44,383 nt of DNA from Bacteroidia bacterium (GTDB lineage Bacteria > Bacteroidota > Bacteroidia > AKYH767-A > OLB10): NCBI GenBank assembly GCA_016788065.1, contig JAEUTI010000069.1, positions 1 through 44,383 on the forward strand. The letters run 5' to 3'. Under the pieces are notes generated by a model that did not search any database, was not told the DNA's origin, and was given only the letters and a program-made list of their open reading frames with translations. Below, piece by piece: positions 15,953-44,383 of the stretch. The translations under genes were made by a program, and so were the position numbers. The stretch's first letter is position 1. Each line of letters starts with the position of its first letter.

Positions 15953-18900
15953 ATGAAAAAAATGAATTACAAAACAGGAACATTGTCAACCTTTAAAGGG
16001 GTAATGGCAACATTATTATTAGTAACTCTAATAGCAATTGGAACATTTGAAAAAAGTGCTGCGCAAACAGTTCTTATCAGTCCTTCCGGGAATGGTGGAT
16101 TTGAGAGCGGAACAACATTTCCTGCTAACGGTTGGACTGTAGTAAATTCTGCCTCCGGTAATTCCTGGGTAGTGGGAACAGTTGCAAAATCGGCAGGAGC
16201 CAGAGGTGCATACATTTCAAACAACTCCGGAACGTCAAATAACTATTCCAATTTTGGTTTATTCAGCACGGCATCAAGAACGGTACATTTTTACCGTGAT
16301 GTAACTTTTCCTGCTGGCGAAACTCAAATTACCTTAGATTTCAAATGGCGTTGCAATGGTGAATCAGGTGCCGATTATATTAAAGTTTCACTTGCTCCTA
16401 CTTCAGTCACACCTGTTACAGGAACAGATATCAATGCAACCTATCAGGTAGCAGGCCCTTATTCAGGTCAGGGAAGTGTTTTTCAAACAGTTTCAGTAAC
16501 CATTCCGGCAAGCAATGCAGGAACAACCAAACGATTAATTTTTACATGGATAAATAATAATAATCTTATAGGATCCAATCCTGCGGGCGCATTCGATGAA
16601 ATTTCATTAACAACATGTACCCCGCCGGTAGTTTCTGCTTCCAACAATGGTCCAGTATGTGCAGGAGGCGATATCAATCTTTCAGCTACAGGTGGAGGTA
16701 CCTATTCGTGGACAGGCCCCAATGGATTTAGTTCCGCTTCGGCGAATCCTACCGTATCCAATATGGGAATTTCGAAAGTAGGTACTTATACAGTTACGGT
16801 TACAAATTCAGGTTGTTCAGCTACAACAACAACAAATGTTAGTTATAATCCCGCACCATCGGGAACCCCTTCTTCTTCGCCTGCAACAGTGTGCAGCGGA
16901 TCTTCTGTTGCTCTGAATTCAAATCTTGCAGTTGATTTTGGTTCTTCTAACACAACTGATTTTAGTATACCCGATAATAATTCAACTGGTATAACTTCCT
17001 CTACTCTTGCAGTAGGATCAGGTTTGAATGCAAACCAGGTTACATCTGTTAAAGTTAATATTACTCATACCTACACAGGAGATTTAACTCTTACTTTAAG
17101 AGCACCAAATGGTTCTACCATTGATCTTTCAAGTGGAAATGGAGGATCAGGAAATAACTATACAAATACTGTTTTTGTTACCGGTGGCACTCCTGTAACC
17201 TCAGGTGCAGCTCCTTTTACTGGTAATTTTGCGCCAGAGCAGGCATTCAGTGGACTCACCGGAACTGCACATGGAACATGGGCATTGATTGTAAAAGACC
17301 TTGCCGGAACTGATGTTGGTACTTTGCTTGACTGGACTTTGGCAATTCAAACAACATCTGGAATTTCTTATTCATGGACAGCAAACAACAGTGGTTTTAC
17401 AGCATCATCAGCTTCAACCAGTGACTCTCCAACTGCATCAACCATCTATAGTGTACAGGGTACTTATTTAGGTTGTTCAGCTACTCAAAATTTAAACTTA
17501 GCTGTACTTGATTTACCTGTTATTAATGCAACAAGCAACGCTCCGGTGTGCGAAGGAACTGATTTAATCTTAAATGCATCCGGAGGCAATACTTATTCAT
17601 GGACTGGCCCATCATTCGGTTCAGGATCACAAAATCCGGTAATTAACAGCGCCACTCAGTCGAATGAAGGTTCCTATACAGTCGTCGCAACAGATTTGTT
17701 CGGATGTTCAAATTCGCAAACATTGGTAGTAGATATAAATGAAGTACCTGTTGTTTCTTTTGTTTCTCAAACCAATATTACATGTAACGGATGGTCGGAT
17801 GGTGAAATTATTGCCACAGCTACCGGAGGTTCCGGATTCTACTTGTATTCGGATGGTTCAAATATAAATTTCGATGGAATCTTTTCAGGACTACCAGCAG
17901 GAAATTATAATATTACAGCAATTGATGCATTTTCATGCGAAGGTGTTACTCCTGCAACATTAACACAACCTGATCCTACTACTGTAGCGGATGCAGGAAG
18001 TGACAATGTAGTTTGTGATGGCAGCAGTGTTTTACTTAATGCAAATACTGCAGTTGTCGGTGTCGGAACTTGGAGTGTTAGTTCAGGTACAGGTAATTTT
18101 ACTGATCCAAATAATGCTGCTACATCTTTATCAGGAACATCAATAGGTGCCAATGTAATGAGGTGGACTATCGACAATGGTGTGTGCGGATCAAATTTTG
18201 ATGAGTTGGTAATAAATACCAATGAACTTCCTCAGGCAGCAATTAGCGGCTCAACTACAATTTGCTCAGGTCAGAGTGCCCAGCTTACTATTAATTTTAC
18301 CGGAGCAGGTCCATGGACATATTCATACACAAATGGTCTCAATAATTTTGGTCCGTTTACAACCAATAATAATCCCGAAATTATTTCTGTCGCACCAGTT
18401 GTTACCAGAACCTATGTAGTTTCGAATGTTAGCGATCTCAATTGTGCTGGTGTTGTGTCAGGAAGTGCGCAGGTTGTTGTTAATGTTGGTTTGCCCGGAG
18501 GTACAATTGCAACCGGCGCTATTGTTAGCCCGCCAACTGCATGTGCAGGAAATGTAATTAATGTTGCCTGCAATTCCGTTTCAAATGTGAATGGTTATAC
18601 ATGGTCTGTAACTTCAGGAACTTTAATTGATGGTCAGTCTGGTCCTTATACAACCAATACACCTAACGCAACCCTAACATTAGGAAGTGTTCCTCCAAAT
18701 TCTTCCGGTTGGTTGGTTTGTGTGATGGGTTCAAATGCATGTGGTAATACAAATCAAAAATGTTTCAACATTCGCGGAAATCTAAGCACACCAGGAGTTA
18801 TAGCAGGAGATGTTGTTGCGTGTGAAAATTCAGTAAAATCATATAGTGTTCCTGCTGTTGCGGGCGCTGAAAATTATTCATGGTCAGTTTCTCCGGGAAT

Positions 18901-20083
18901 GACTATCGTGAGTGGAGCAGGAACTAACAACATCACGGTTAGTTTTGCTCCCGGATTCACTCAGGGTAACTTGTGCGTTGCTGCAGGATTAAATTGTGGT
19001 TTCACAGGATTATCACGTTGCCTGGTTATCAAAAACATTACTCCTGCTTTAGGTAATTTAACCGGTCCTTTTGCATTATGTCCTGGACAAACCAATCAGG
19101 TTTTCAGTGTGCCTTCAGTAGCAGGTGCTGCAAGTTATAATTGGACGATTCCTTCAAATGTATCTGTTGTTAGTGGTCAGGGTACACCTTCTCTTGTATT
19201 GAATGTTGGAAATAACTTCAACATCGGTCAATTGTGTGTTGAAGTTGTTTCTAATTGTGGTTTGGTTTCATCTACCAGATGTAAAACTATTTATTCTACT
19301 ATTCCTCAAACACCATCCCTGATTGCCGGACAGGCAGGAGGTGTGTGCGGACAAACATTAACTTATGCTGTCCCATCTGCACCCGGAATCAACAGTTACA
19401 ACTGGAGTTTACCTTCAGGTGCAAGTTTTGTATCACCTAATGGTTCGAATTCTGTTGACATAAGTTTCATAAACTCTATGGGTAGTGGTCAAATTTGTGT
19501 GAGCTCAGTAAATAGTTGTGGTTCCAGTATTCCTCGTTGTATGAATGTGAAAGGAATTCCTGCTGATGCCGGAAATATAAATGGAGCTAATTCGGTTTGC
19601 CCTGGTGAACAAGGCTTAATGTTTTCAATAAATGCAGTGCAAGGTGCTAACAACTATATATGGACTGTTCCAACTGGTGCTACAATTATTGCCGGACAAA
19701 ATACAACATCGATTATTGTTGACTGGGGTACTGCCAGTGGTGCTGTAACTGTAAAAGCTTCTAATGATTGCGGATTCTCAGGAACCAAAGTATTTAATGT
19801 TTCTGTTGGTTGCAGAATTGCTTCTACGGCTCCTGAAGGATTTATGGTTTATCCAAACCCTGCCCGCGAAAAGGCAACGATTTCATTTGAATCGAAAACA
19901 AGCTCAACCGCTACAATCAAAATGACTGATATAGCTGGACGGATATTATTTTCTGAAAATATGGAAGTTTCAAAAGGCAAGCAATCTGTACCTGTTAATC
20001 TGTACGGCATTAAGCCAGGTACTTATCTGGTGCAGGTTGAATCAAATGGAGAGCTAATGATTGCAAAACTGACTGTACAATAG
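15953..20083 (+). CDS. giant T9SS surface protein: anchor-J, Ig-like, nested P-domain, SprB, five PKD-like repeats
   Basis: A 1376-residue secreted protein. The ATG at 15953 starts MKKMNYK; an ATG at 15941 would add four residues. Layout: signal peptide to about 38 (ending SAAQ); choice-of-anchor-J-like domain 41-222 (GGFESGTTFPANGWTVVN); Ig-like 225-299; an Ig-like domain split in two (303-324 and 470-519) by a proprotein-convertase P-domain (334-468, DFSIPDNNSTGI...DWTLAI); Ig-like 522-596; one SprB repeat 599-674 (TCNGWSDGEI...NFDGIFSGLPAGNY); a GVGTWSV-type PKD-like domain 676-756; Ig-like 758-844; five PKD-like repeats 846-1287, most with four cysteines; T9SS sorting domain 1295-1376 (VYPNPAREK). 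No catalytic domain accompanies the P-domain. I infer an adhesin or matrix protein. The four genes at 20375, 29204, 34162 and 41723 are partial paralogues. Confidence 0.88.
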   Translation: MKKMNYKTGTLSTFKGVMATLLLVTLIAIGTFEKSAAQTVLISPSGNGGFESGTTFPANGWTVVNSASGNSWVVGTVAKSAGARGAYISNNSGTSNNYSNFGLFSTASRTVHFYRDVTFPAGETQITLDFKWRCNGESGADYIKVSLAPTSVTPVTGTDINATYQVAGPYSGQGSVFQTVSVTIPASNAGTTKRLIFTWINNNNLIGSNPAGAFDEISLTTCTPPVVSASNNGPVCAGGDINLSATGGGTYSWTGPNGFSSASANPTVSNMGISKVGTYTVTVTNSGCSATTTTNVSYNPAPSGTPSSSPATVCSGSSVALNSNLAVDFGSSNTTDFSIPDNNSTGITSSTLAVGSGLNANQVTSVKVNITHTYTGDLTLTLRAPNGSTIDLSSGNGGSGNNYTNTVFVTGGTPVTSGAAPFTGNFAPEQAFSGLTGTAHGTWALIVKDLAGTDVGTLLDWTLAIQTTSGISYSWTANNSGFTASSASTSDSPTASTIYSVQGTYLGCSATQNLNLAVLDLPVINATSNAPVCEGTDLILNASGGNTYSWTGPSFGSGSQNPVINSATQSNEGSYTVVATDLFGCSNSQTLVVDINEVPVVSFVSQTNITCNGWSDGEIIATATGGSGFYLYSDGSNINFDGIFSGLPAGNYNITAIDAFSCEGVTPATLTQPDPTTVADAGSDNVVCDGSSVLLNANTAVVGVGTWSVSSGTGNFTDPNNAATSLSGTSIGANVMRWTIDNGVCGSNFDELVINTNELPQAAISGSTTICSGQSAQLTINFTGAGPWTYSYTNGLNNFGPFTTNNNPEIISVAPVVTRTYVVSNVSDLNCAGVVSGSAQVVVNVGLPGGTIATGAIVSPPTACAGNVINVACNSVSNVNGYTWSVTSGTLIDGQSGPYTTNTPNATLTLGSVPPNSSGWLVCVMGSNACGNTNQKCFNIRGNLSTPGVIAGDVVACENSVKSYSVPAVAGAENYSWSVSPGMTIVSGAGTNNITVSFAPGFTQGNLCVAAGLNCGFTGLSRCLVIKNITPALGNLTGPFALCPGQTNQVFSVPSVAGAASYNWTIPSNVSVVSGQGTPSLVLNVGNNFNIGQLCVEVVSNCGLVSSTRCKTIYSTIPQTPSLIAGQAGGVCGQTLTYAVPSAPGINSYNWSLPSGASFVSPNGSNSVDISFINSMGSGQICVSSVNSCGSSIPRCMNVKGIPADAGNINGANSVCPGEQGLMFSINAVQGANNYIWTVPTGATIIAGQNTTSIIVDWGTASGAVTVKASNDCGFSGTKVFNVSVGCRIASTAPEGFMVYPNPAREKATISFESKTSSTATIKMTDIAGRILFSENMEVSKGKQSVPVNLYGIKPGTYLVQVESNGELMIAKLTVQ

Positions 20084-20123
20084 TCTAAAGCCACAATATT
20101 CCAATGCATAATTGATCAGCGCT

Positions 20124-20182
20124 TACCCTATATATTTCACGTATATAATTAAAAATCAATAATATGTGAAATGTATAGGGTA
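20124..20182. repeat. 17-base inverted repeat with 25-base loop
   Basis: Arms 20124-20140 (TACCCTATATATTTCAC) and 20166-20182 (GTGAAATGTATAGGGTA) are complementary apart from one G-U pair, and the loop can pair further. There is no U run after it, so it is a weak terminator candidate; it could instead be a regulatory or mRNA-stabilising hairpin at the 3' end of the gene ending at 20083. The rest of this gap (20084-20374) shows nothing else clear. Confidence 0.6.
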
Positions 20183-20374
20183 TTGCTTTGAAGTTGATTT
20201 AAAAATAAACAAAAGTGCACAATCAAAAGAAACAGACAGTAATAAATCATGTTTTTACCCTCAATTTGATGCCATTCACATAAAAGTTGAGCATTTCTGA
20301 AAGCCCTGAAAGTAACTTGATCGAAATGATTAATAAAGGCAAAATTTAAAAACTCATCTACAAAACAATAAAAA

Positions 20375-23300
20375 ATGAAAAAATTGAACTCCAACCACAA
20401 AACGATTGCTACTGCCCAACTAACGGGCAGGGGGATCAAACGATTGACAATGGCAGTATTATTACTGCTTGTATCACACTGGGTAACTGCTCAGACAACC
20501 TTTACAAACAGTTCGTCAATTTCAATGTCATCATCATTGGCATCAAATGGATCACCATATCCATCAAACATTACTGTTTCTGGAATGACAGGTGTGATAT
20601 CGAATGTAACAGTAACGCTAACGAACGTTTCTCACACCAATCCAGACGACATTGATGTTGTAGTACAATCTCCGACTGGAGTCAATGTTGTTCTGATGTC
20701 TGATGTAGGAGGAACTGGTGATATCACCAATCGTACCTACACTTTGAGTATGGCGGCGGCTAATTTTTTAAGTGATGGTTCATCTAATGCAGCAGGTACC
20801 TACAAACCTACCAACATTGGTGCTTCCGATGACTGGCCTTCACCTGGACCCGGAACTTTGAGTCAGGGTACTCCAACATTAGCAAATTTTAATGGTGCTA
20901 GTGCTAACGGAGTTTGGAAATTGTTTGTCAGGGATGATGCCTTGTTTGGAACCGGTTCAATCAATGGAGGTTGGTCAGTTACAATTACATCCTGCGTACC
21001 TCCTTCAGCAACTGCTTCAAGTAATAGTCCTGCTTGTGTAGGTTCAGCAATTAACTTAACTGCAACTGGTGGTACATCGTACTCATGGACTGGACCTGAT
21101 GGATTCTCATCCTCATCTGCAACTCCAACAATTGCATCTGCAACGCTAGCGAAAGCAGGAGTTTATACTGTTGTTGTAACTGATGCTGGTTGTTCATCAA
21201 CAACCACAACTACCGTAGTTGTAAATAGTGCACCATCAGGAACACCAACTGCTTCTTCAGCTTCAGTTTGCGAAGGTGGTTCAGTGACATTAAGTGCAAA
21301 TCAATTTAGAAAAGCGGTTGTACAAAATGCTACTGATTTTGCAATTCCTGATAACAATACAACAGGTATAACGTCTACAGTTACTGTTTCTGGTACCGGA
21401 TTAACTGCCGCTCAGGTAGTAAGTAGTGTATTGATTAACATAACTCATCAATTTAATGCTGACCTTGACATTTTCTTAAAAGCTCCAAACGGTTCTCAAA
21501 TTGAATTAAGTACCGATAATGGTGGAAGTGGTCAAAATTATGTGAATACCTTATTTCAAACTGGAGGCGGAAGTATCACTGCTGCTTCTGCTCCAATGAC
21601 TGGCACCTTTGCACCTGAACAAGCTTTTTCAACACTTACAGGAACCGGTGATGGAACATGGAGCCTGGTAGTAAAAGATGATGCTGCGGATGATTTGGGT
21701 ACCTTAACCGATTGGACACTTACATACAATACTCCTGCAGGTGTTACTTATTCCTGGACGTCAACACCATCAGGATTTACTTCAACAGCTGCAAACCCTA
21801 CTGCTAATCCAACTACAACAACTACTTACGAAGTAATTGCAACAGGTAATGGTTGTGCTGGAAGCCCTGCAACTGTAACTGTAACCACGTTAGCTCCTCC
21901 TGTAGCGGTTGCATCTTCAAATACACCTGTTTGTGAAGGCTCAGATTTAAATCTGAATGCTTCAGGTGGTACAAGTTATGCATGGACTGGTCCATCATTT
22001 ACTTCTTCAACACAAAATCCAACTATTTCAGGTGCTTCAATTGCAGCTTCAGGAAGTTATACTGTTGTTGTAACAAATGCATTCGGATGTACAGATGCTG
22101 AAACAATATCTGTAACCGTTAATGATAAACCAGAATTAAGTATTCTTACGCAAACGAATGTTACTTGTAACAGTGGTGCTGATGGAGCAATTGCTTTGGA
22201 TGTTACCGGAGGTACAGGACCATTCTTGTATTTTGATGGAAGTAATTTCAGTTTTGATGGAACTTTCTCTGGATATGCAGCAGGATTGGTTTCAGTAACT
22301 GTAACCGATGATAATAGCTGTGAAGATGTTATCAGTTTCAATATCACTGAGCCTGGTCCAATTACAATTGCTGATGCAGGTTCAGATCAATTGTTGTGTA
22401 ATAGCGGTACTGCTACAATTACAGGTAATACCCCTGTTGTAGGAGTAGGAACATGGACACTTCAAAGCGGAACTGCTGCAATAACTAATCCTGGATCAGC
22501 TTCAACCGGTTTGACAGGAATGGCTGCAGGAGATATTGTATTGCGTTATACAATTGAACAAGTTGGTTGTGGATCTAATTTCGACGAAGTAACTTTAATC
22601 AATAGCGCAGCTCCACCAGCACAACCATTAGCAATCACAGGTGTTACTGTTGCATGTCCTCCATTAGTTGGTGAAACATTTACTATTGATCCAGTTGCAG
22701 GTGCAACTTCATATTTATGGTTTACCGGACCTGGAACAACCGGATTAACATTTACAACTCCTGTAAACGGAACTTCAGTGAGTGCAAATTTTGCAGCTAC
22801 TGCTAACTCAGGTTATTCACTCCGTGTTAGCGCTGTGAATGGTTGTGGAGCAGGAAACCATGTTGGTTCATTCATCAGAAGAACAGTTTCAACTCCGGGT
22901 TTAACAGGTTCATCACAAGCTTGTGCAAGTGATACTAAAACATTTACAATTCCAGAACCTGTTGTTGGTGCAGTGAATTACATTTGGACAGTTCCGGCAG
23001 GTGCAACAATTGATGGAAATGCTTCTCCATATACAAGTTTGAGCACAACTGTTAATGTGGCATTCCCTCCGACATTTGTTTCAGGAAATGTTTGTGTAAA
23101 AGCTGTAGGTCCTTGCGGTATTGAAACAGGTAACAGATGTATCACTGTAAATTCAGTTCCTGCACGTCCAATAAAAATTAATGGAAATAATACAGCATGC
23201 CCTGGAAGTACACAGTCATTCAATGTGCCTCCTGTAGCAGGAGCTACCTCTTATAACTGGACTTTACCTGCTAATGCTACAATCATTAGTGGTGCAGGAA

Positions 23301-24220
23301 CCAGTGCTATTACAGTAAGTTTTGCCGGAAATTATGTTGGTGGAAATATTTGCGCCTCTGCAACCAATCCTTGTACAACAGGACAGCAGGTATGTATCAA
23401 TGTGCAAAGAGCAATTCCAGCAATGCCCGGTTATATTAGTGGTGCAGCACATGGCTTATGTGGAACTACCCAAACTTATAGCATTGCTGCTGATCCCGGA
23501 ACTTTGACTTACAACTGGACTGTACCATCAGGTGCTGTTATCACAAGTGGAGCAGGTACTAATACCGTTGAAGTTGATTTTTCCGGTGTAAGTTTCCCTT
23601 CAGTAGGAAATCAATATCTGCAAATTTCTGTTTCGAAAACCAATGCTTGTTCTACAGGTGTACCAAGAGTGTTGAATATCCAGGGTGTTCCACAAAAAGC
23701 ACCTTCAATCAGTGGTCCTAGTGGAGTTTGTGCAGACGAATCAGGTGTATCTTTCTCTGTTCCTGCAATGTTCGGTGCTAACAACTATAACTGGAATGTT
23801 CCTGCTGGTGTGAATATCATTGCAGGTCAAGGTACAAACTCAATTGTTGTAGATTGGGGTGCAAATCCAGGTGTAGTATCGGTAACTGCTACTAATAGTT
23901 GCGGTAATAGCGGAACAAGAACACTTGCTGTTGGAATCACCTGCAGAGTTGCCGGAAATGAAATTTCAAAACCTGTCTTGACTGCTTACCCAAATCCTGC
24001 TTCCGACAGAGTGCTGGTTAATTTCAATGCTGGTTCTGCAGATCAGACTACAATTTCACTAATTGACATATCCGGAAGAGTAATTAAAACGTTGCAAAAC
24101 GTATCAGAAGTAGGTTTCAATGAAGTTGAGATTGACCTAACCGGAATTGCAAAAGGTGCATATATGTTACAAGTTCAATCAAATGAAATATCAGATCAAA
24201 CCAGGCTGATAATAGAATAA
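20375..24220 (+). CDS. giant T9SS surface protein with two P-domains, SprB and five PKD-like repeats
   Basis: A 1281-residue secreted protein, paralogous to the upstream gene over most of its length. Layout: long signal region ending VTAQ at 40; N-terminal P-domain-like beta-sandwich 44-207 (DIDVVVQSPTGVNVVLMSD...GVWKLFVRDDA...GGWSVTI); Ig-like 209-285; an Ig-like domain (287-309 and 456-506) interrupted by a second P-domain (318-453, DFAIPDNNTTGI...DWTLTY); Ig-like 508-583; SprB repeat 586-661; GVGTWTL PKD-like 663-745; five PKD-like repeats 751-1190; T9SS sorting domain 1199-1281 (TAYPNPASDRV, DISGRVI, GAYMLQV). It lacks the anchor-J domain and the Ig-like domain found before the five repeats in the neighbour. 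The ATG at 20375 follows an A-rich leader. No enzymatic motif. Confidence 0.88.
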   Translation: MKKLNSNHKTIATAQLTGRGIKRLTMAVLLLLVSHWVTAQTTFTNSSSISMSSSLASNGSPYPSNITVSGMTGVISNVTVTLTNVSHTNPDDIDVVVQSPTGVNVVLMSDVGGTGDITNRTYTLSMAAANFLSDGSSNAAGTYKPTNIGASDDWPSPGPGTLSQGTPTLANFNGASANGVWKLFVRDDALFGTGSINGGWSVTITSCVPPSATASSNSPACVGSAINLTATGGTSYSWTGPDGFSSSSATPTIASATLAKAGVYTVVVTDAGCSSTTTTTVVVNSAPSGTPTASSASVCEGGSVTLSANQFRKAVVQNATDFAIPDNNTTGITSTVTVSGTGLTAAQVVSSVLINITHQFNADLDIFLKAPNGSQIELSTDNGGSGQNYVNTLFQTGGGSITAASAPMTGTFAPEQAFSTLTGTGDGTWSLVVKDDAADDLGTLTDWTLTYNTPAGVTYSWTSTPSGFTSTAANPTANPTTTTTYEVIATGNGCAGSPATVTVTTLAPPVAVASSNTPVCEGSDLNLNASGGTSYAWTGPSFTSSTQNPTISGASIAASGSYTVVVTNAFGCTDAETISVTVNDKPELSILTQTNVTCNSGADGAIALDVTGGTGPFLYFDGSNFSFDGTFSGYAAGLVSVTVTDDNSCEDVISFNITEPGPITIADAGSDQLLCNSGTATITGNTPVVGVGTWTLQSGTAAITNPGSASTGLTGMAAGDIVLRYTIEQVGCGSNFDEVTLINSAAPPAQPLAITGVTVACPPLVGETFTIDPVAGATSYLWFTGPGTTGLTFTTPVNGTSVSANFAATANSGYSLRVSAVNGCGAGNHVGSFIRRTVSTPGLTGSSQACASDTKTFTIPEPVVGAVNYIWTVPAGATIDGNASPYTSLSTTVNVAFPPTFVSGNVCVKAVGPCGIETGNRCITVNSVPARPIKINGNNTACPGSTQSFNVPPVAGATSYNWTLPANATIISGAGTSAITVSFAGNYVGGNICASATNPCTTGQQVCINVQRAIPAMPGYISGAAHGLCGTTQTYSIAADPGTLTYNWTVPSGAVITSGAGTNTVEVDFSGVSFPSVGNQYLQISVSKTNACSTGVPRVLNIQGVPQKAPSISGPSGVCADESGVSFSVPAMFGANNYNWNVPAGVNIIAGQGTNSIVVDWGANPGVVSVTATNSCGNSGTRTLAVGITCRVAGNEISKPVLTAYPNPASDRVLVNFNAGSADQTTISLIDISGRVIKTLQNVSEVGFNEVEIDLTGIAKGAYMLQVQSNEISDQTRLIIE

Positions 24221-24245
24221 ATTATTCATCTGCCTGATTTGCCCG

Positions 24246-24279
24246 AATCCCTGTCTCTTTCTGAGGCAGGGATTTTTCA
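24246..24279 (+). terminator. intrinsic terminator
   Basis: Arms AATCCCTGTCTC (24246-24257) and GAGGCAGGGATT (24263-24274), with one G-U pair and a five-base loop, are followed by TTTCATTTTT. It lies 25 bases after the stop of the upstream surface-protein gene. Confidence 0.88.
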
Positions 24280-33718: not shown

Positions 33719-33736
33719 TAACTAAGTAAAAGGGTA

Positions 33737-33767
33737 GGGGAGATGCAAATTTGCATCTCCCCTTTTC
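33737..33767 (+). terminator. intrinsic terminator, perfect 26-base palindrome
   Basis: GGGGAGATGCAAA (33737-33749) is followed immediately by its exact reverse complement (33750-33762) and then TTTTC. It lies 18 bases after the stop. Confidence 0.9.
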
Positions 33768-34161: not shown

Positions 34162-37100
34162 ATGATGAAAAACAACTACTCATCAGGTAAAACAACAGGG
34201 TGGCGCAAGCTTCTGATGTTGTTTATGATTACAACAACCATGTTGTTATCTGTAAACCTGAATTCGGCAAATGCGCAGTATTGCGCAGCAGCTGGTGGTA
34301 CTTGCGATGAGGCACTAAACAATGTGACTTTCGCAGGTATTAACAACAGCTCTCCTTGCGGGGCTGGAGGCTACACCAATTGGACATCCTTGACAGGAAA
34401 TGTTACAATTGGTTCAACCTACTCTTTCAGTTGCCAAACCACATTATATTATGGTGGTGATGCAGCAGAAGTATGGATCGACTGGAATCAGAACAGTTTG
34501 TTCACTGATGCCGGAGAATACTACTCTACCACCTACACTGGTGCTGGAGGTGTTTTCACAACCTCTATCACTGTTCCTGGGTCAGCAAATGCTGGAAATA
34601 CCAGAATGCGTGTTAGAATGCGCTATTTTGGAACTGCGAATGTGCCTTGTGGAAATGCAGGTAGTAGTTATGGAGAGGTGGAAGATTATACTATAGCTGT
34701 TGCCGGTGGTTCAGCTTGTGTGAATCCTCCAACTGCAGGGTCTGCCAACTCCAATGTTACCTCGACTTGTCCAGCTACTACTATAAATTTATCACTTAGT
34801 GGAAATACCATTGGTACCGGTCAAACTTATCAGTGGCAATCGTCACCTGATAACAGTACCTGGACAAATATCCCAGGTGCTACATCTTCAACTTATGGAA
34901 CGACACAGTCATCTGCAACTTATTACCTTTGTGTAGTAACATGTGGGACTTCAGTTCCTTCTGCTTCAGTATTTGTAAATGTTAATCCTTTTACAGATTG
35001 CTATTGTACTTCAGGTGCTACAAATGCATTTGATGAAGAAATTTATGAGGTAAATATTAATGGCGCGGTGACACCGGCTGCCTATGCTAATACCAACGGC
35101 TGTACTACTCCTGCACCTGGTCCGGGATCTGTTTTGAGCTTGTATTCAAATTTCAAAACTTTGGGTGCATTGACCTCTATTTATAAGACTACATCTGTTC
35201 CATTCAGTATTTTCCAAAGTGAATGTGATGGTGCTACCTATTATCCAAATGGTATTGCAATCTTTATCGACTACAATCAAAATGGGGTCTTTGAAATGAC
35301 TGAGCAAGTATTCGCTGAAGGCGTTACTGCTACCGGTCCCCGTACCGTTAGCGGAAGCTTTATTGTGCCTCCAACAGCATTAACCGGAGTTACCGGAATG
35401 CGTATAATTTGTGCTGAAGGATTTTCTGGTGCTGGTCTTACAGGTTGCCTTAGTTACGGCTATGGTGAAACAGAAGACTATCTGATCGATGTTCAACCAG
35501 CTCCTGCATGTACTGAGCCTCCTGTTGCAGGAACTATCTCAGGATCATCTTCACTTTGTGTTGGAACTAACGGTTCATTGACACTTACAGGTTATACTTT
35601 AGGTACTACTATTCAGTGGCAATCATCACCAGACAATTCAACATGGACAAATATTGGTGGTGCAAATCTGTCAGTTTATAACATTACTTCATTTGCTGCA
35701 CCAACCTATTATCGTGCAGAAGTGACTTGTATTTCATCAGTAACCTCAGCATCTTGGTTTGTTGATCAGAGTGCATTCCTAAACTGCTATTGTACTGCCA
35801 ACCTTGGTGGTTCATGCGGAACGCAATCAATCAACAGTGTTGCAATTGCAACAACCACTTTAAATAATCCGTCAACATGTGTATTCACGGCTCCGGTTTA
35901 TGCTTCTTACCCTGCAAGCGGATCTACAACTGCTACGCTTTTAAAAACTGTTCCTTATTCAATGACAGTTGGAACCGGTAATAATGGAAACCCTGCAATG
36001 ATAGGAGTGTGGATTGATGGTAATCAGAATGGAGTTTTTGAAGCAACTGAATACACTCAAATAGCGGCAAGTTCACCATCAGGTGGAACATCCACTGCTA
36101 TCATCACTGTTCCTGCAACAGCATTAACCGGACAAACCGGAATGCGTGTAAGAAGTAACTGGGCATCTAATCCTTTTACAGGTACAGATGCATGCTCTTT
36201 CTTCTCTTTTGGAGAAACCGAGGATTACATTATTACTATTGATCCGGCTCCTGTGTGTACTGATCCTCCATTAGCAGGAACTATTACAGGCAATTCATCC
36301 TTATGTATTGGTGCTTCCTCTCAGCTTACCCTTTCAGGATATTCACTGGGAACAACTTTACAATGGCAATCTTCTTCTGATAACATTACCTTCACGAATA
36401 TTGCAGGTGAAACAAATCCAATTTATAACATTGCATCGTTTTCCACTCCATTGTATTATCGTGTAGAAGTGACATGTGCCAACACATCTTATTCACCCTC
36501 CTTACAAGTAACACAAGCACCATTTTTTAGTTGCTATTGTGTTCCAACTAATGCGGGTTCAGGTTGTATGACCAATGTTACATTCAATACATTGAATAAT
36601 ACAACTCCGGGTTGTCCAGGTGGAACAAACTATGCAAGTTTCCCTGCTACAACTACAGTACTTCAGGGAGTTTCATATCCATTGTCTATTACTCTGGATG
36701 GAACAGGAGCTGCAATCGGATCGGTTTGGATTGATTACAATCATGACGGTGTTTATGATGCTTCGGAATGGGTACAAATTGGCACCAACATGACGGCATC
36801 AGCTACTACCACTATCAACATTCTCATTCCTTTAACTGCGTTAACAGGAACTACCGGAATGCGTATACGTACTCGTTTGACCGGTAACCAAAATGGTGCC
36901 GGAGATGCTTGTCTCGCAATGGGTTCAGGAGAAACGGAAGATTATACAATCACTATTGATCCTCCTCCACCATGTACTGAGCCTCCTTCAGCTGGAACAA
37001 TCAGTGGAACCTTACAGTTCTGTTCTGGTGGTTCAAGTTTGTTAACTTTAACCGGTTACGATTTAGGTTCTGCAGTGCAATGGCAAACTTCACCTGACAA

Positions 37101-40100
37101 TGCTACATGGTCGAATATCGGTGGAGCAACAAATGCAACTTACACTGCAACAACATTTGCTTACTTCCGTGTTGCCGTTACTTGTGTAACGTCATCTTTC
37201 AGCGCATCTGTTCAAACAACTGCCAATCCATTCTCAGTTTGTTATTGTGCATCGTTGCCAACATTTACCGGTGATGAAGAAATATTTGCTGTTACATTGA
37301 ACGGAAACACAAATTCATCAAGTTGTATAACCACTGGTGGTCCAGGTTCAATTTTGAACAGATATTCGAACTACACCAATTTAGGTACCTTCTTCACAGT
37401 TCAAAAAGATATTACTTATCCAATTTCTATTGATATTGGAACTTGTGGTGGTAACTTTACAAGTGGAACTGCTATTTTCATCGATTACAACCAGAATGGT
37501 TCATATGCTGATGCTGGAGAACAAGTTTATGGAACACCAATCGGAACCAATGGTCCGCATGTTGTGAATGGCTCATTTGCTGTTCCTTCAACAGCCACTT
37601 TAGGTGTTACCGGAATGCGTGTAATTAATGCTGAAGGATTTACTTCAGCAACCATTACTCCTTGTCTCGCATATGGTTATGGTGAAACAGAAGATTATTT
37701 GATAGAAATTCAGGCTGCTCCTGTATGTGTTGATCCTCCGGTTGGTGGAACAGCAACTGCTGCTTCAACTTCTATTTGTGCAGGTTCAGGAACTACCTTA
37801 GGACTTACTGGCCAAACACTGGGAACTACTTACCAGTGGCAGGAATCATCTGACAATATTAACTTCTCTAATATTGCAGGTGCTACCAATGCCTTGTATG
37901 TTGCAGGATCAATTTCGGCAAATACTTATTTCCGCTGTGAAGTGACTTGTGTGGCTTCAACACCTTCATCTTCCATACTTATTAGTGTAGTGCCATGTGT
38001 AAATCAACCTTCATCAGGTACTTCTTCTCTCACAACATGTGCTGCTAATTACTACGATTCAGGTGGTTCTGCCGGAACTTATGCTAGCTCTGAAACAGGG
38101 GTGTATACAGTTTGTCCGAATCCTGGAAATCAATTAAAGGTTGTATTCAGCGTGTTCAATACAGAATCTAACTGGGATCCACTTTATATCCATGACGGTC
38201 CAACAACTGCATCACCATTATTTGCAAGTGCAAACGGAGCATCTAATGGCGGATTCCCAGCCGGCGGATGGTGGGGAACTACAATCCCTGGTGGAGCGGG
38301 AGGGTTTACTTCAACTGATCCTTCAGGCTGTCTGACTTTCGAATTCTTATCTGATGGTTCTGTAAATAATCCAGGATGGCAGGCTGTATTCAGCTGTATC
38401 TCTAACGATTGTTCAGGTCAGCCTGTGATTACCGGAATTTCTCAACCAGGTGTTAACTGTCCAGGAACTTCAACTCTGTTGGAACCTTCTGCAGGTTCTT
38501 CAGGTGGCAATGGTATCACTTACTTATGGGAAGAATCTGATGATGATGGTATTTCTGATCCATGGGCTCCGGCCAGTGGAACAAACAGCAACCGTACCTT
38601 TGTAACTCCAACACTGACGACTGGAATGTATTACCGTCAAACAATGAATTGTACGTTAAGTGGCTTGAGTGCAACTTCCTCAAGCTATCAGGTTCAGTTC
38701 CTTCCTACACCAATAGTTAATGCCGGAAGTAATTCTCCGATTTGCGAAACAGGCACCTTATTCCTTACTTCAAGTAATGATGGTCCTGGGCAAACAGCAG
38801 CAAGTTATTTGTGGGATGGTCCCGGAGGATTCAACGATGTTACCCAAAATCCTCAGATTTCTGGTGTAACTGCATTATATACCGGAACATACACTGTACA
38901 GATTACTAATAATTTTGGTTGTACATCTTCTAATTCGGTAGCAGTTACGGTTAATCCTAATCCAACGCTTGCTGAGATGAGTAATACTGCAGTTACATGT
39001 AATGGCGGAAGTGATGGTGCATTTACTATCCAGGCTTCTAATGGTACTCCGGATTATTTATTTTCAAATGGCATCGATATTAACATCGATGGAATCTTTA
39101 CAGGAGTACCTGCAGGTTCTTATGCAGTTCAGGTAACTGATCAAAACGGTTGCTCATCTGAAATAAGCGTAACTGTAACTGAGCCGGATCCAACAACTAC
39201 TGCGCTTGCAGGTTCTGATCAATCGTTCTGCGCATCTCCATCTGCAACTCTTGCAGGTAATACCGCTTTAGTTGGTGTTGGTAGCTGGAGTGTTGTAGCA
39301 GGTAGTGCAACCGTTACTAATCCTTCTGATCCTAATTCAGGAGTTACAGGATTAAGCAATGGTTTGAATACATTCCGTTGGACTATTGATAACGCAGTTT
39401 GCGGAAACAGCAATTTTGATGAAGTGGATATTCTAAACAATGTTCTTCCAACTGCTTCTTTAAGCGGAACAGCTGATATTTGTAATGGAAATTCAACAAC
39501 TTTATCAATTGTGTTTACAGGTTCTGCTCCTTACACTTATTCTTACAGTAATGGTGTAAGTACATTTGGACCATTCACAACTTCTGCTAATCCTGAGAAC
39601 GTTGTGGTTTCGCCATCCGCTACCAGAACTTATTCATTGGTAAGTGTTGATGATAATTTCTGTGCTGGTTCAGTTTCAGGAAATGCTGTTGTTACAGTTA
39701 CACAAGCTCCTCCAGCCGGAACAATTGCTGCGGTTAACGCCCCTGCAGTTGCTTGCGTTGGTCAGGTAGTTACGGTAACAACTAATGCAGTATCCGGTGC
39801 AGCCGGTTACACCTGGAGTGGCCCTGCCGGAACTTTATTCAATGGTCAGCCTGGTCCATTTACAACAGCAACGAATTCTGTAAGTGTTGAATTTGGAGTA
39901 TTGACTGTTAATTCTGGTTATGACATTTGTGTAAAGGCTGTTAATGCCTGCGGACAAACCAACAACAAATGTAAATGGGTTCGTGGATTGGTATCTACCC
40001 CTGCTCCAATTATTGGTCAGTCTGTTTCATGTCCACTTGATGTTAAAACTTATACAGTTTCTCCTGTTGTAGGTGCATCAAATTATTTCTGGACTGCAAC

Positions 40101-41301
40101 TCCTCAGATGCAGATTTTAGCTGGTCAGGGAACTGCTACAGTAACTGTTCGTTTCTTGGCTCCATTCACTACTGGTAGCATTTGTGTTACAGCTGTAACA
40201 AGTTGTGGTGCAAGTTCTGCTGCTCGTTGTATGACAGTTTCTAAATCTCTTGCTCCATTAGGTGCATTGTCAGGAAGCTTCTCATTATGCCCAGGACAAA
40301 CAGGACAGATATTCTCAATCCCTGCTGCTGTTGGTGCTTCAACGTATACTTGGGCAGTTCCTGCAAATGTTACTATAGTTTCAGGACAAGGAACACCATC
40401 CATTTCTGTTAACGTAGGTGCCGGATTTACTCAAGGAAATCTTTGTGTAACAGTTGCATCTTCTTGCGGTGTTTCTGCTCCTCCGAAGTGTAAAACGATT
40501 AGTTCTGAATTCCCTGCTCTTCCCGGAAATATTACCGGTTCTGCTGCAGGTGTATGCGGTCAAACAATCATTTACTCTATCCCAAGTTCATCTAATGTGG
40601 CTAGTTACAACTGGACTGCTCCAGCTGGTGCTACTATAGTTTCAGGACAAGGAACTAACTCCGTTTCTATTAGCTACACAAATAACTTTACATCAGGACA
40701 GATCTGTGTGGCGGCACAAAATGGTTGCGGCACAAGCCCTGTTCGTTGTATCAACGTTAAAGGTGTTCCTGCTGATCTTGGAGTTATCTCCGGATCTACT
40801 TCAATTTGCAGCTTCGAGTCAGGTGTTCAATATCAGGTTGCCAATACTTTTGGTGCAACCAGTTACTTATGGACAGTACCTGCCGGTGCTACAATTATTG
40901 CTGGTCAGGGAACAAATACCATTTTCGTTGATTATGGTGTTGGTGCTGGTCAAATTACAGTTAAAGCTTCTAATAGTTGTGGTCTGTCCGGAACCAGAAG
41001 CTTGAATGTTATTGTGATCTGTAAACTTTCCGGAAATGAGATTCCAGGTACTGTTGTAAATGCATATCCAAATCCTGCATCTACTGATGTCACTGTTGAT
41101 ATCGAAACAATTTCGGAAGGTGCCTATGCCCTTGAACTTACTGATTTGTCAGGAAGAGTTGTTTTGACTGAGCAGTTAAATGCTGTTTCAGGAATGAATA
41201 AAACCTCACTGGATGTTAGTAACATTGCAAAAGGAATGTATATGCTAAGCATTCGTAACAACGAAGGTTTTGCAAATCAAATCCGTGTTGCTGTTGAGTA
41301 A
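34162..41301 (+). CDS. giant T9SS surface protein: five GEVED domains, CUB-like, SprB, five PKD-like repeats
   Basis: The largest gene in the window, 2379 residues. Signal peptide to about 39 (NSANAQ). GEVED domains begin at about residues 40, 280, 541, 791 and 1027; they show WIDWNQNSLFTDAGEY or FIDYNQNGVFE and end in GE-x-EDY. Each is followed by an Ig-like module of the type WQSSPDNSTWTNI. A CUB-like domain lies at about 1284-1413 (LKVVFSVFNTESNWDPLYIH then DGP). Then come Ig-like domains, one SprB repeat (VTCNGGSDGAFTI...NIDGIFTGVPAGSY), a GVGSWSV PKD-like domain, an Ig-like domain, five PKD-like repeats and a T9SS sorting domain with AYPNPASTDV near 2303. No catalytic motif is seen. I infer a long modular adhesin. 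ATG codons at 34162 and 34165 are both possible starts. Confidence 0.88.
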   Translation: MMKNNYSSGKTTGWRKLLMLFMITTTMLLSVNLNSANAQYCAAAGGTCDEALNNVTFAGINNSSPCGAGGYTNWTSLTGNVTIGSTYSFSCQTTLYYGGDAAEVWIDWNQNSLFTDAGEYYSTTYTGAGGVFTTSITVPGSANAGNTRMRVRMRYFGTANVPCGNAGSSYGEVEDYTIAVAGGSACVNPPTAGSANSNVTSTCPATTINLSLSGNTIGTGQTYQWQSSPDNSTWTNIPGATSSTYGTTQSSATYYLCVVTCGTSVPSASVFVNVNPFTDCYCTSGATNAFDEEIYEVNINGAVTPAAYANTNGCTTPAPGPGSVLSLYSNFKTLGALTSIYKTTSVPFSIFQSECDGATYYPNGIAIFIDYNQNGVFEMTEQVFAEGVTATGPRTVSGSFIVPPTALTGVTGMRIICAEGFSGAGLTGCLSYGYGETEDYLIDVQPAPACTEPPVAGTISGSSSLCVGTNGSLTLTGYTLGTTIQWQSSPDNSTWTNIGGANLSVYNITSFAAPTYYRAEVTCISSVTSASWFVDQSAFLNCYCTANLGGSCGTQSINSVAIATTTLNNPSTCVFTAPVYASYPASGSTTATLLKTVPYSMTVGTGNNGNPAMIGVWIDGNQNGVFEATEYTQIAASSPSGGTSTAIITVPATALTGQTGMRVRSNWASNPFTGTDACSFFSFGETEDYIITIDPAPVCTDPPLAGTITGNSSLCIGASSQLTLSGYSLGTTLQWQSSSDNITFTNIAGETNPIYNIASFSTPLYYRVEVTCANTSYSPSLQVTQAPFFSCYCVPTNAGSGCMTNVTFNTLNNTTPGCPGGTNYASFPATTTVLQGVSYPLSITLDGTGAAIGSVWIDYNHDGVYDASEWVQIGTNMTASATTTINILIPLTALTGTTGMRIRTRLTGNQNGAGDACLAMGSGETEDYTITIDPPPPCTEPPSAGTISGTLQFCSGGSSLLTLTGYDLGSAVQWQTSPDNATWSNIGGATNATYTATTFAYFRVAVTCVTSSFSASVQTTANPFSVCYCASLPTFTGDEEIFAVTLNGNTNSSSCITTGGPGSILNRYSNYTNLGTFFTVQKDITYPISIDIGTCGGNFTSGTAIFIDYNQNGSYADAGEQVYGTPIGTNGPHVVNGSFAVPSTATLGVTGMRVINAEGFTSATITPCLAYGYGETEDYLIEIQAAPVCVDPPVGGTATAASTSICAGSGTTLGLTGQTLGTTYQWQESSDNINFSNIAGATNALYVAGSISANTYFRCEVTCVASTPSSSILISVVPCVNQPSSGTSSLTTCAANYYDSGGSAGTYASSETGVYTVCPNPGNQLKVVFSVFNTESNWDPLYIHDGPTTASPLFASANGASNGGFPAGGWWGTTIPGGAGGFTSTDPSGCLTFEFLSDGSVNNPGWQAVFSCISNDCSGQPVITGISQPGVNCPGTSTLLEPSAGSSGGNGITYLWEESDDDGISDPWAPASGTNSNRTFVTPTLTTGMYYRQTMNCTLSGLSATSSSYQVQFLPTPIVNAGSNSPICETGTLFLTSSNDGPGQTAASYLWDGPGGFNDVTQNPQISGVTALYTGTYTVQITNNFGCTSSNSVAVTVNPNPTLAEMSNTAVTCNGGSDGAFTIQASNGTPDYLFSNGIDINIDGIFTGVPAGSYAVQVTDQNGCSSEISVTVTEPDPTTTALAGSDQSFCASPSATLAGNTALVGVGSWSVVAGSATVTNPSDPNSGVTGLSNGLNTFRWTIDNAVCGNSNFDEVDILNNVLPTASLSGTADICNGNSTTLSIVFTGSAPYTYSYSNGVSTFGPFTTSANPENVVVSPSATRTYSLVSVDDNFCAGSVSGNAVVTVTQAPPAGTIAAVNAPAVACVGQVVTVTTNAVSGAAGYTWSGPAGTLFNGQPGPFTTATNSVSVEFGVLTVNSGYDICVKAVNACGQTNNKCKWVRGLVSTPAPIIGQSVSCPLDVKTYTVSPVVGASNYFWTATPQMQILAGQGTATVTVRFLAPFTTGSICVTAVTSCGASSAARCMTVSKSLAPLGALSGSFSLCPGQTGQIFSIPAAVGASTYTWAVPANVTIVSGQGTPSISVNVGAGFTQGNLCVTVASSCGVSAPPKCKTISSEFPALPGNITGSAAGVCGQTIIYSIPSSSNVASYNWTAPAGATIVSGQGTNSVSISYTNNFTSGQICVAAQNGCGTSPVRCINVKGVPADLGVISGSTSICSFESGVQYQVANTFGATSYLWTVPAGATIIAGQGTNTIFVDYGVGAGQITVKASNSCGLSGTRSLNVIVICKLSGNEIPGTVVNAYPNPASTDVTVDIETISEGAYALELTDLSGRVVLTEQLNAVSGMNKTSLDVSNIAKGMYMLSIRNNEGFANQIRVAVE
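40371..40655 (+). repeat. 24-base in-frame direct repeat spanning one PKD-like repeat
   Basis: The same 24 bases, beginning TACTATAGTTTCAGG and ending CAAGGAAC, occur at 40371-40394 and 40632-40655. The copies are offset by 261 bases, exactly 87 codons, and sit at equivalent places in consecutive PKD-like repeats of the 2379-residue protein. Confidence 0.85.
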
Positions 41302-41344
41302 TTTGGAAATAGAATATTTGAGAATTTCTCAGATATAAATTAAG

Positions 41345-41376
41345 AAAAGGGTGTCTGTTTCAGACACCCTTTTTTT
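41345..41376 (+). terminator. intrinsic terminator
   Basis: AAAAGGGTGTCTG (41345-41357), a TTT loop and CAGACACCCTTTT (41361-41373) form a perfect 13-bp stem running into a T tract. It lies 43 bases after the stop of the 2379-residue gene. Confidence 0.93.
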
Positions 41377-41722
41377 GTGAAAAGTTCGTTTTCAAGTCAA
41401 TTATTTAGCATTAGCGAAATAATTCGTTTACATAAAATACAATCCATCAAAATGTTCACCTACTAAAAAGTATCATTCACCCCAATATTCGGATATCGAA
41501 TAAATGTAACTTTTTCAAATTCAGACATTTAAAAATTTGTCTTTTTCATTGGTCAAAATATTTTTGTTTAATATTGACTGGTATAGAAGATTTACTACCT
41601 TGCTAAAAATTAACCCTAACCTAACCAAGTCATAACTATTCTATTGCCGGAATTCTTTCCTGGATTTATTCATCTGCCTAAGAAATAGTATAACCATAAA
41701 ATAACCCCTAAAACAATTTATT
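41377..41722 (+). promoter_or_regulatory. A+T-rich leader region with candidate promoter
   Basis: No gene is seen. A possible promoter is TTG at 41574-41576, a 19-base spacer and TACCTTG at 41596-41602 (one T short of the consensus). The predicted leader then contains CTAACCAAGTC at 41621-41631, which matches CTAACCAAATC just before the previous gene's ATG at ten of eleven positions, but here it is about 90 bases from the start codon. Confidence 0.4.
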
Positions 41723-44383
41723 ATGAACAAAACAAATTACAAGATCCGAACGTGGATTGATCGATGTTCTCGATTATTCTTGTTTACGATTGCATTGATG
41801 TCGATTACATTGATGACAACCCGAGTTGATGCAACTACATGCGGAGGTGCAGCAAGTATCCCTGCAGTCCCGACATTACCTTACGTAGCGTCACTGACTT
41901 GCGCTGGAACAAATGACATTACTTCGCTGAATTCTACTACCTGTGGAACTGCGGATTACAAAGGTGGACAGGAAGCTGTATTTGTGTGGACTCCAACTTC
42001 ATCTTATACAGGTGTTTCGATTGCTTATGCAGGAGTTTCATGGACAGGAATATTTCTTTACAATGGTTGCCCCACATCAGGTGGTACATGTGTTGGAAAC
42101 ATTACAAGCTCTGGTTCTTCAAAAACGTTATCAGGAATGTCTGTAACAGCTGGAAATACATACTATATTGTAATAGATACCTGGCCTACACCAAATAGTC
42201 CATGTCCAGGAACTATTACATTGAATGGTACAATTGTATCAGCTTGTTCAGGCTCACCAACGGCAGGTTCTGTAACTGCACCTGCGCTGGCTTGTTCCGG
42301 TACGGCTTTCAATGTGACATTGACTGGAGCAACTTCTGGAACAGGAATTGTTTATCAATGGCAAACTGGACCTTCTGGTTCAGGTCCATGGACAAATGTT
42401 GGAACAAACAGTACAACTTATTCTGCTACTCAAGCGGCAACAACTTTTTACCGCGCTGAAGTTAAATGTAATCCAAGTGGACTCTCTGCAACAACTGCTG
42501 CTGTTTCAGTCGGAATGAATTCCCTTCTGAATTGTTATTGTGCATCTGTTCACACAAGTGGTTGTTCAGGTGACGCTATTGTTTCTGCAACACTTGGTAC
42601 TTTGAATAATAATACAGGTTCAAGTTGTCCTGCAAATCCAGCGTATTCTTATTATTTCCCTGGAGTATCTCAGACAACTTTGTATCAGGGATCTTCCTAT
42701 TCTCTGGTAATGACTTTTGGCACAGATGGTAATCAATATGCAGGTGCATGGATTGATTACAACAACAATGGTATACTTGATGCTAGTGAGAATATTGGAC
42801 TTACAGGCAATGCAGGAGCTAGTGGAACAGCTACTATCAACTTTACTGTTCCTCCAACTGCTACAACTGCATTAACCAGATTGAGACTTATTGGAGGGAA
42901 TGATTCACCAGTAACTGCTGTTCAGGCTTGTGGAGCTTCTTCTAGTACCTGGGGAGAGACAGAAGATTATGACATTACTATTGCAACTCCTCCTGTTTGT
43001 TCAGGTTCACCAGCAACCGGAACTGCGAATGCTTCTGCAACAACAGTTTGTCCAGGTGGTACCACAAGCTTATCAGTATCAGGAATTGGTATTGAAACAG
43101 GTTATACTTATCAGTGGTATGACGGCTCTTTCAACATTATTCCGGGAGCAAACACAAATCCTTATGTTTTGTCTCCAACTCAAACCGATACCTACTATTG
43201 TCTTGTAACATGTTCAAATGGTGGAGGGAATACATTTTCAACCGGAGTAACCGTTACCTTTGATGCATCTGCAAATGCAGGAACAATAAGCGGACCTACA
43301 TCAGCTTCTACTTTCGCAAATCTTGCTTATTCAACCAATGCATATCTTGGTAACCTTCAGTGGCAAAGTGCTACTGCGCTTGCCGGTCCATATACTGACA
43401 TTGCCAGTGCAACATTAGATAACGTATCATTGGTTTCAAATGCTGCAGGAACATTCTATGTTCGTTTACGTGCAGCTTCTCCAACGTGTACTACTTATTC
43501 AAATGTGATCACGATTGTGGTTACCATTCCAAATGATAATGCTTGTAATGCAACAGCAATTTCTACCGGTAACAGTGGACCTTATACTAACATTGGCGCT
43601 ACAGGTGAAGTAGGAGAGGTTTCTCCACCACTTACTGGATGTGCAATTCAAAACGGATGGTGTTCAGGTGGAAATACTGTAGTTAACTCTGTATGGTTCT
43701 CTTTTGTTGCACCTCCTTCAGGTCGTGTTTCAATTCGTTTGAATCCCAATTTAACTCTTTGGGATAGTCAGTTTGCACTTTATTCTGCAACTAACTGTGC
43801 TGATTTTGGAACTTATACCTTGATCGCAGCAAATGACGATTCTTTAAATTCTCCATACAACTCTTATATCGCTCCAAAATGTTTAACTCCTGGAGCTACT
43901 TATTATCTAAAAGTTGATGGTTATCAGGCTACCACAAACGGCAATTGGGGTATATTGTTGACTGAAGAAACTTCAATTCTTCCAACCGCTGCAATTACAG
44001 GTTCACAAACAATTTGTAATGGTAACAGTGCAAACCTTTCGATTGCATTTACCGGAGCTTCTTCATGGACTTATTCAGTTAACGGAGGTGCACCAGTAAC
44101 AACTTCAAATAATCCTGAAACAGTTACTGTATCTCCGAATGCTAATACAAGTTATTCTATAACTTCTGTGAGTGATGCAAATTGTCCTGCAGGAACTACA
44201 AGTGGTACTGCTGCAGTACAGGTAGACAATGCACCTCCAGCCAATTCTGTAACCATTACGAGCTTCCCGGTGAATGCATGCGTGGGAGATGTAGTAGTTA
44301 TTAATACAAATGCAGTAATAGGAGCTACAGGATATACCTGGTCAGTAGATGCAGGAACATTGGTTAATGGAAACGCAGGACCT
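41723..44383 (+). CDS. giant secreted surface protein, N-terminal part (cut by right edge)
   Basis: An ATG at 41723 opens a frame that runs 887 codons without a stop to the right edge; I translated it throughout. It starts MNKTNYKIRTWIDRCSRLFL, and a signal peptide ends near residue 37 (TTRVDA). A PPC-like beta-sandwich follows (40-175, VFVWTPTSS...YIVIDTWPTP), then an Ig-like module (VYQWQTGPSGSGPWTNVG), a GEVED domain at about 271-420 (CYCASVH, WIDYNNNGILDASEN, GETEDYDITI), two more Ig-like modules, a second PPC-like domain at about 604-750 (NSVWFSFVAPPSGRVSIRL, YYLKVDGYQ) and an Ig-like domain about 760-841. At the edge it enters the first PKD-like repeat of the shared stalk (NACVGDVVVINTNAVIGATG). 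The rest, probably with a T9SS sorting domain, lies outside. Confidence 0.85.
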   Translation, partial: MNKTNYKIRTWIDRCSRLFLFTIALMSITLMTTRVDATTCGGAASIPAVPTLPYVASLTCAGTNDITSLNSTTCGTADYKGGQEAVFVWTPTSSYTGVSIAYAGVSWTGIFLYNGCPTSGGTCVGNITSSGSSKTLSGMSVTAGNTYYIVIDTWPTPNSPCPGTITLNGTIVSACSGSPTAGSVTAPALACSGTAFNVTLTGATSGTGIVYQWQTGPSGSGPWTNVGTNSTTYSATQAATTFYRAEVKCNPSGLSATTAAVSVGMNSLLNCYCASVHTSGCSGDAIVSATLGTLNNNTGSSCPANPAYSYYFPGVSQTTLYQGSSYSLVMTFGTDGNQYAGAWIDYNNNGILDASENIGLTGNAGASGTATINFTVPPTATTALTRLRLIGGNDSPVTAVQACGASSSTWGETEDYDITIATPPVCSGSPATGTANASATTVCPGGTTSLSVSGIGIETGYTYQWYDGSFNIIPGANTNPYVLSPTQTDTYYCLVTCSNGGGNTFSTGVTVTFDASANAGTISGPTSASTFANLAYSTNAYLGNLQWQSATALAGPYTDIASATLDNVSLVSNAAGTFYVRLRAASPTCTTYSNVITIVVTIPNDNACNATAISTGNSGPYTNIGATGEVGEVSPPLTGCAIQNGWCSGGNTVVNSVWFSFVAPPSGRVSIRLNPNLTLWDSQFALYSATNCADFGTYTLIAANDDSLNSPYNSYIAPKCLTPGATYYLKVDGYQATTNGNWGILLTEETSILPTAAITGSQTICNGNSANLSIAFTGASSWTYSVNGGAPVTTSNNPETVTVSPNANTSYSITSVSDANCPAGTTSGTAAVQVDNAPPANSVTITSFPVNACVGDVVVINTNAVIGATGYTWSVDAGTLVNGNAGP

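Follow-up and report, generated by a model that had tools for sequence, protein, structure and literature searches.

A tandem array of T9SS-tailed stalk proteins with differing heads in a hypervariable island of a Bacteroidia bacterium

We analyzed a stretch of DNA of 44,383 nucleotides from a Bacteroidia bacterium (the window), which is the complete contig C9 of a draft genome of 97 contigs and 4.26 Mb (G000). ORF calling in the window gave six open reading frames in a row, all rightward, of 1380, 1281, 1431, 1504, 2379, and at least 887 aa. This confirmed a sequence-only reading of the same DNA, which had described six consecutive rightward genes of 1281 to 2379 residues, the last one cut by the edge. 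The start given there for the block, 15953, is an in-frame Met of the first gene, but only the second one, and the longest ORF begins at 15941. The features of the region are the following:

15594-15668, minus strand: tRNA-Met (CAT), identified with ARAGORN; left edge of the hypervariable region.
15941-20083, plus strand: G1, 1380 aa; N-terminal domain (~28-232), P-domain, Ig-like repeats, stalk of five PKD_6 domains (859-1287), T9SS type-A tail.
20375-24220, plus strand: G2, 1281 aa; two P-domains, Ig-like repeats, stalk of five PKD_6 domains (748-1186), T9SS tail.
24657-28952, plus strand: G3, 1431 aa; repetitive, without the stalk; weak match to the G8 domain; T9SS tail.
29204-33718, plus strand: G4, 1504 aa; exchangeable N-terminal module (~1-180), GEVED, stalk (984-1409), T9SS tail.
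34162-41301, plus strand: G5, 2379 aa; five GEVED domains and Ig-like repeats, stalk (1856-2283), T9SS tail.
41723-44383, plus strand: G6, at least 887 aa; GEVED-containing head; the contig end cuts the gene within the stalk.
44243-44383, plus strand: repeat of 141 bp at the contig end; the identical sequence also ends contig C90 (head of a seventh gene, G7) and, reversed, starts contig C75 (stalk of G7).

Pfam searches identified five PKD_6 domains (PF19408) in each of G1, G2, G4, and G5, with E-values of 2e-66 to 2e-71. In G6, whose five PKD domains would lie beyond the window edge, the last ~133 residues are 74% identical to the start of the G7 stalk, and the final 141 bp match a neighbouring stalk exactly. 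The earlier claim that five of the six genes share a C-terminal design is thus upheld. Between array members, PKD repeats at the same position are 39-57% identical, against 29-35% at different positions, which shows the stalk to be one inherited unit with positional homology and not a chance run of Ig-like domains. The remaining gene, G3, is by its sequence outside the stalk family and has a single close orthologue in several relatives. It had also been proposed that all genes but the last end in a T9SS sorting domain. Indeed, the tails of G1 to G5 are all above the 23-bit cut-off of the type-A model TIGR04183, including that of G3, which scores 28.7 bits there and is below Pfam's own cut-off, and G6 ends before the position of the tail. 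The N-termini look like signal peptides by eye.

The heads in front of these stalks are of several kinds. Pfam found the P-domain once in G1 and twice in G2, and GEVED once in G4, five times in G5, and once in G6; a role of these domains in binding is putative. Only weak matches were obtained for fn3 in G4 and for a galactose-binding-like domain in G6. Among the labels that had been given to the heads, P-domains and GEVED therefore stand and Fn3 is reduced to the weak match in G4, whereas anchor-J, CARDB, CUB, and PPC had no Pfam match at E<=0.1 in the array heads. As scans of the region for sigma-70 promoters gave results at chance level, and as the motif TAnnTTTG occurs 3 times in the intergenic gaps for 2.2 expected, we make no claim on promoters. 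Strong hairpin-plus-T terminators follow G2, G3, and G4, and the terminator count of the region is at chance level.

The genes next to the contig end could be traced on two other contigs of G000. Contig C90 has a stalk end followed by a head of 1004 aa (G7), and C75 has a stalk end of 526 aa, a stalk protein of 1488 aa (G8), and a T9SS protein of 485 aa. The reference for comparison was G001, the one same-genus genome compared, which is a sister species (a MAG of 350 contigs with ~2% estimated contamination). Its contig C32 carries a stalk end, a protein of 1478 aa that matches the C90 head at 75% identity over its first 1004 residues, and orthologues of G8 (63%) and of the 485-aa protein (65%). 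The joins C9-C90-C75 were inferred from contig overlaps and synteny: the one between C90 and C75 is supported by synteny, and the one between C9 and C90 is the simplest reading, with a short piece missing between the end of G6 and C90. The simplest order of the genes would then be G1-G2-G3-G4-G5-G6-G7-G8, i.e., an array of at least eight genes. The stalk ends of C90 and C75 have 4 differences in 341 bp, after which the similarity stops abruptly. Together with the 141-bp identity, this implies that G7 and the gene before it (G6 in the simplest order) have near-identical stalk DNA; the other array stalks are only ~40-60% identical to each other at the protein level. The head of the G7 orthologue has just a weak Lamin-tail match, and an AlphaFold model of the G7 head (two sequences) has a pLDDT of 32.6 and no confident fold.

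The array is real, but it belongs to a larger hypervariable island, which also includes a polysaccharide cluster. Positions 1-15594 of the window are colinear with contig C338 of G001 (88.8% nucleotide identity with blastn), which ends exactly at the tRNA-Met. Synonymous differences were counted by the plain Nei-Gojobori method, in which a value close to saturation says no more than "large". Outside the island, the left flank has pS values of 0.09-0.52 and the right flank of 0.03-0.40. Inside, pS is 0.61-0.73 for G3, the G4 head, G7, G8, and the 485-aa gene, and 0.74-0.82 for the polysaccharide genes. Hence, the ranges inside (0.61-0.82) and outside (0.03-0.52) do not overlap, and near-saturation extends over all comparable genes, starting with G3 and running through the whole polysaccharide cluster. 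No counterpart of the heads of G1, G2, G5, and G6 was found in G001, whose assembly breaks in the region, which makes their absence uncertain. The island spans at least ~55 kb (~28.7 kb of the window, C90, and the first 24.5 kb of C75). Its right boundary is inside a single contig in both genomes, with C32 of G001 running from the diverged island into the conserved right flank. This boundary cannot be explained by misbinning of the sister MAG, which we rejected for contig C32.

The polysaccharide cluster lies on C75, downstream of the array, and is of the Wzx/Wzy type. It encodes an initiating sugar transferase, glycosyltransferases, a methyl- and a sulfotransferase, a Wzx-like flippase, a Wzy-like protein, a Wzc-like chain-length protein, and a Wza-like exporter. 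That this polysaccharide is the anchor or a ligand of the array proteins would be a guess.

The left border shows no synonymous peak: the genes w10-w13 (window 9980-15415), which adjoin the island, have dS values of 0.10-0.24, below the 0.46-0.90 of genes further left, as if this flank had recombined recently. The right border is modestly raised. Integration linked to the tRNA was considered and is not supported, since the 3' end of the tRNA points to the conserved flank and we saw no integrase. At loci L047 (G007:C13) and L050 (G010:C38), both of other genera, the orthologue of G3 is the immediate neighbour of orthologues of w13 or w12 (a subtilase), which suggests that the stalk genes are an addition between w13 and G3. 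In a genome of a different family, two stalk genes are directly upstream of the G3 orthologue (L043, G020:C23:5431-20000), and part of the neighbourhood may be old. Further left, window 8028-9386 (plus strand) encodes a bacterial gamma-carboxylase-like protein with HTTM and vitamin K-dependent gamma-carboxylase lumenal domains.

We then compared the histories of heads and stalks, including two genomes of another genus (G005 and G012) and the one of a different family (G020). The N-terminal domain of G1 is 62% identical to proteins of G005 and G012, whereas the G1 stalk is only ~28-44% identical to the stalks of these head orthologues. Conversely, it is mostly 40-60% identical to the stalk of G5, whose head is unrelated to that of G1. 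The same was observed among the paralogues of G005, where stalks are mostly 52-76% alike under unrelated heads. In the stalk tree, the four stalks of G020 form one group and those of G005 and G012 another, and an AU test rejects the grouping of G1 with its head orthologues (p-AU 1.4e-7). Stalks group by genome and heads follow orthology across genera; the relationships of the N- and C-terminal parts, whose comparison the sequence-only reading had put forward, are in conflict.

Positional comparisons show where the changes fall. Relative to the sister species, residues 1-180 of G4 are unrelated, whereas ~50 bp upstream are nearly identical and residues 450-800 are 80-94% identical; the swap keeps the frame and a signal-peptide-like start. 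The positional orthologues G012_C46_5607 and G005_C6_14085 lie beside 10 kb of DNA that is 89% identical; their stalk sides are 87% identical over 573 aa, but their heads, of 460 and 760 residues, are unrelated. A stalk gene outside the array, on C25, shows the reverse when compared with C86 of G001: the head is 90-99% identical (dS 0.3-1.0) and the stalk 49-80% (dS mostly >1). The G1 orthologues of G005 and G012, taken as a control, have no such dS jump between head and stalk. Between G7 and its sister counterpart, the head is 77% and the stalk 56% identical. The head swaps in G4 and in the G012/G005 pair, and the stalk change in the C25 gene, indicate exchange on both sides of the junction, also in genes outside the array. 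Duplication with exchange of N-terminal modules, as proposed earlier, is thus half of the picture: two heads were replaced in situ and heads and stalks conflict, but stalks were also homogenised. Nor is exchange a product of the array. In related genomes the stalk genes are mostly scattered or paired, and they still show exchange. Hence, the sequence comparisons support module exchange, but not as a property of the array. The stalk recurs across the order, mostly with four or five PKD repeats. The genus pairs G002/G011 and G014/G017 are too diverged for positional orthologues and have many genes with similar multi-PKD stalks.

G000 encodes T9SS machinery outside the window, where the earlier reading had proposed to look for it: profile searches identified PorU on C1 (1378 bits) and SprA_N on C36 (576 bits). 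It also has at least 150 T9SS tails and 78 PKD_6 matches. PorU is known to cleave cargo of type A, which then becomes attached to the surface; in P. gingivalis this attachment is via A-LPS (PMC11205867). From the type-A tails and from PorU and SprA, we predict that the array proteins are exported and attached to the outer surface. A SprB-type gliding adhesin was rejected, since the tails are of type A and, among the array proteins, the Pfam SprB repeat matched only in G8. The model of the stalk is an all-beta string of beads (pLDDT 88.6). By sequence, the nearest match of the stalk among proteins of known structure is GhpA of Aureispira (profile E 5e-46, 11 stretches).

We think it probable that the array proteins are displayed on the surface as fibrillar-adhesin-like T9SS type-A cargo and that their heads are exchanged by recombination, resulting in fast change of the surface. 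The conserved C-terminal part, i.e., the Ig-like/PKD_6 rod and the sorting tail, would direct export through the T9SS, PorU would attach the protein to the cell surface, and the rod would hold up the variable N-terminal head. The stalk could in addition serve as the stretch of homology for recombination, both within the genome and with DNA from relatives. Such recombination would copy stalks between paralogues and deliver new heads. The heads may bind ligands, and the role in adhesion or in a matrix that the sequence-only reading had suggested is plausible. Selection would then favour turnover of the heads, likely through altered binding and through evasion of surface-recognising phages or grazers. 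Recombination between tandem repeats requires no selective benefit, and the adaptive part of this scheme is offered as a proposal. A wider version is possible but doubtful: the PKD_6 stalk might be a genome-wide recombination platform in uncultured Bacteroidota of this order, where conversion keeps stalks alike, heads exchange at orthologous positions, and the T9SS heads change together with the neighbouring exopolysaccharide cluster.

One might have expected that plain tandem duplication followed by vertical divergence, with heads evolving faster than stalks and no exchange, would be sufficient. The genes are in tandem and in the same orientation, and the stalk repeats keep their positions. 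Yet the G1 head is nearer to another genus than to any paralogue and the stalk shows the reverse, with the AU test (p=1.4e-7) against grouping it with the head orthologues. Whole heads were replaced at orthologous positions in G4 and in the G012/G005 pair, and the stalk DNA of G6 and G7 is nearly identical under unrelated heads, all of which makes this account very improbable. We give similarly little credit to exchange and identity being artefacts of metagenome assembly or binning. It is true that contigs of both same-genus genomes break in stalks and that the sister MAG has ~2% estimated contamination, but C32 of this MAG joins the diverged island to the conserved right flank, the G4 swap retains the upstream DNA, the frame, and the signal-peptide-like start, and the G005/G012 swap adjoins 10 kb of 89% identical DNA.

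Alternatively, the block could have been acquired whole from a distant relative in one lineage, in which case the array would not be a site of continuing variation. This would account for array and polysaccharide genes with near-saturated dS between colinear, less diverged flanks, and the dN/dS of G3 relative to the sister species, only 0.075, indicates that the divergence is old and not a fast adaptive change. We find it rather unlikely, because identity varies widely within single genes (residues 1-180 of G4 unrelated and later ones 80-94% identical; 77% in the head and 56% in the stalk of G7), and the near-identical stalk DNA of G6 and G7 points to recent local recombination. As for function, the proteins could be mainly structural parts of an extracellular matrix, or prey-holding fibres like the grappling hooks of Aureispira, and not adhesins. 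GhpA being the closest sequence relative of known structure and the polysaccharide cluster lying directly downstream are both consistent with this. However, GhpA has 5898 residues in its PDB sequence, against 1281-2379 here, and the match involves repeated Ig-like domains at ~20% identity, which does not carry function; this reading seems unlikely to us.

Several known systems are close to the array. PKD_6 is among the stalk families built for fibrillar adhesin-like proteins, with Por_Secre_tail as one of the anchors (PMC8286594), and GEVED and the shuffling of adhesin domains have been treated as well (PMC10952558). Like those proteins, the array proteins have PKD_6 stalk domains, five in tandem per complete stalk gene, a C-terminal T9SS anchor, and heads variously combined with stalks. 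Unlike these studies, which list architectures, we observe swaps at orthologous positions, stalks that were homogenised, and genes in tandem within an island that varies. In aquatic prokaryotes, replacement flexible genomic islands carry polysaccharide and giant-protein clusters, and a synonymous peak is reported at their borders (PMC4033161). The island described here likewise occupies the same chromosomal place, between conserved borders, with surface polysaccharide and giant-protein genes of highly diverged content. It differs in that synonymous change at the left border falls towards the island, and in that we compared species whereas strains of one species were compared there.

Within the T9SS, the P. 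gingivalis proteins RgpA, Kgp, and HagA have adhesin modules in common (PMC5266723). They too are exported by the T9SS, share modules through recombination, and have repeats that break short-read assemblies. There, however, cleaved-adhesin and DUF2436 modules exchange behind protease domains, whereas here the PKD_6 stalk is constant and the N-terminal head varies; Pfam scans found neither cleaved-adhesin (CAD) nor DUF2436 domains in the array proteins. GhpA (PDB 9flp and related entries), which forms heptameric hooks (reviewed in PMC11205867) and acts in ixotrophy, is also a giant T9SS-secreted protein of Bacteroidota with homologous Ig-like/PKD domains in its shaft. With 5898 aa in its PDB sequence, it is several times longer than the array proteins. 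We found no direct description of the same arrangement in the open-access literature.

The shuffling of adhesin domains was already inferred from catalogues of architectures. What our comparison adds is that head exchange can be observed in place, in two genera: at an orthologous position, with neighbours and stalk unchanged, one head stands where another is found in the relative. It also adds that the stalks group by genome and share an island with a polysaccharide cluster. The case links modular T9SS adhesins to hypervariable surface islands, two subjects mostly investigated separately, and yields a testable prediction as to the part of the protein that recombines and the part that is exposed to the surroundings. 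There is also a warning for genomics: the draft assemblies break exactly at the stalks in both same-genus genomes, and short-read genomes of these bacteria will thus tend to undercount such genes.

A few observations were made elsewhere in these genomes. Two stalk ends outside the array, L025 (start of C18) and L024 (end of C60), have 3 differences in 303 bp and are then abruptly unrelated. The single PKD_6 gene at L037 (C59) has near-saturated synonymous divergence and 67% aa identity relative to L042 (C337 of G001), whereas its neighbours are 94-98% identical in aa, as if one gene alone had been replaced. A second, partial PorU-like match (139 bits) lies in a frame of 1695 aa at C59:74115-78989. 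Finally, G000 has further tandem runs of same-strand genes with T9SS tails, at C7:18261-31771 (~690-890 aa) and C91:52072-66165 (~920-1190 aa).
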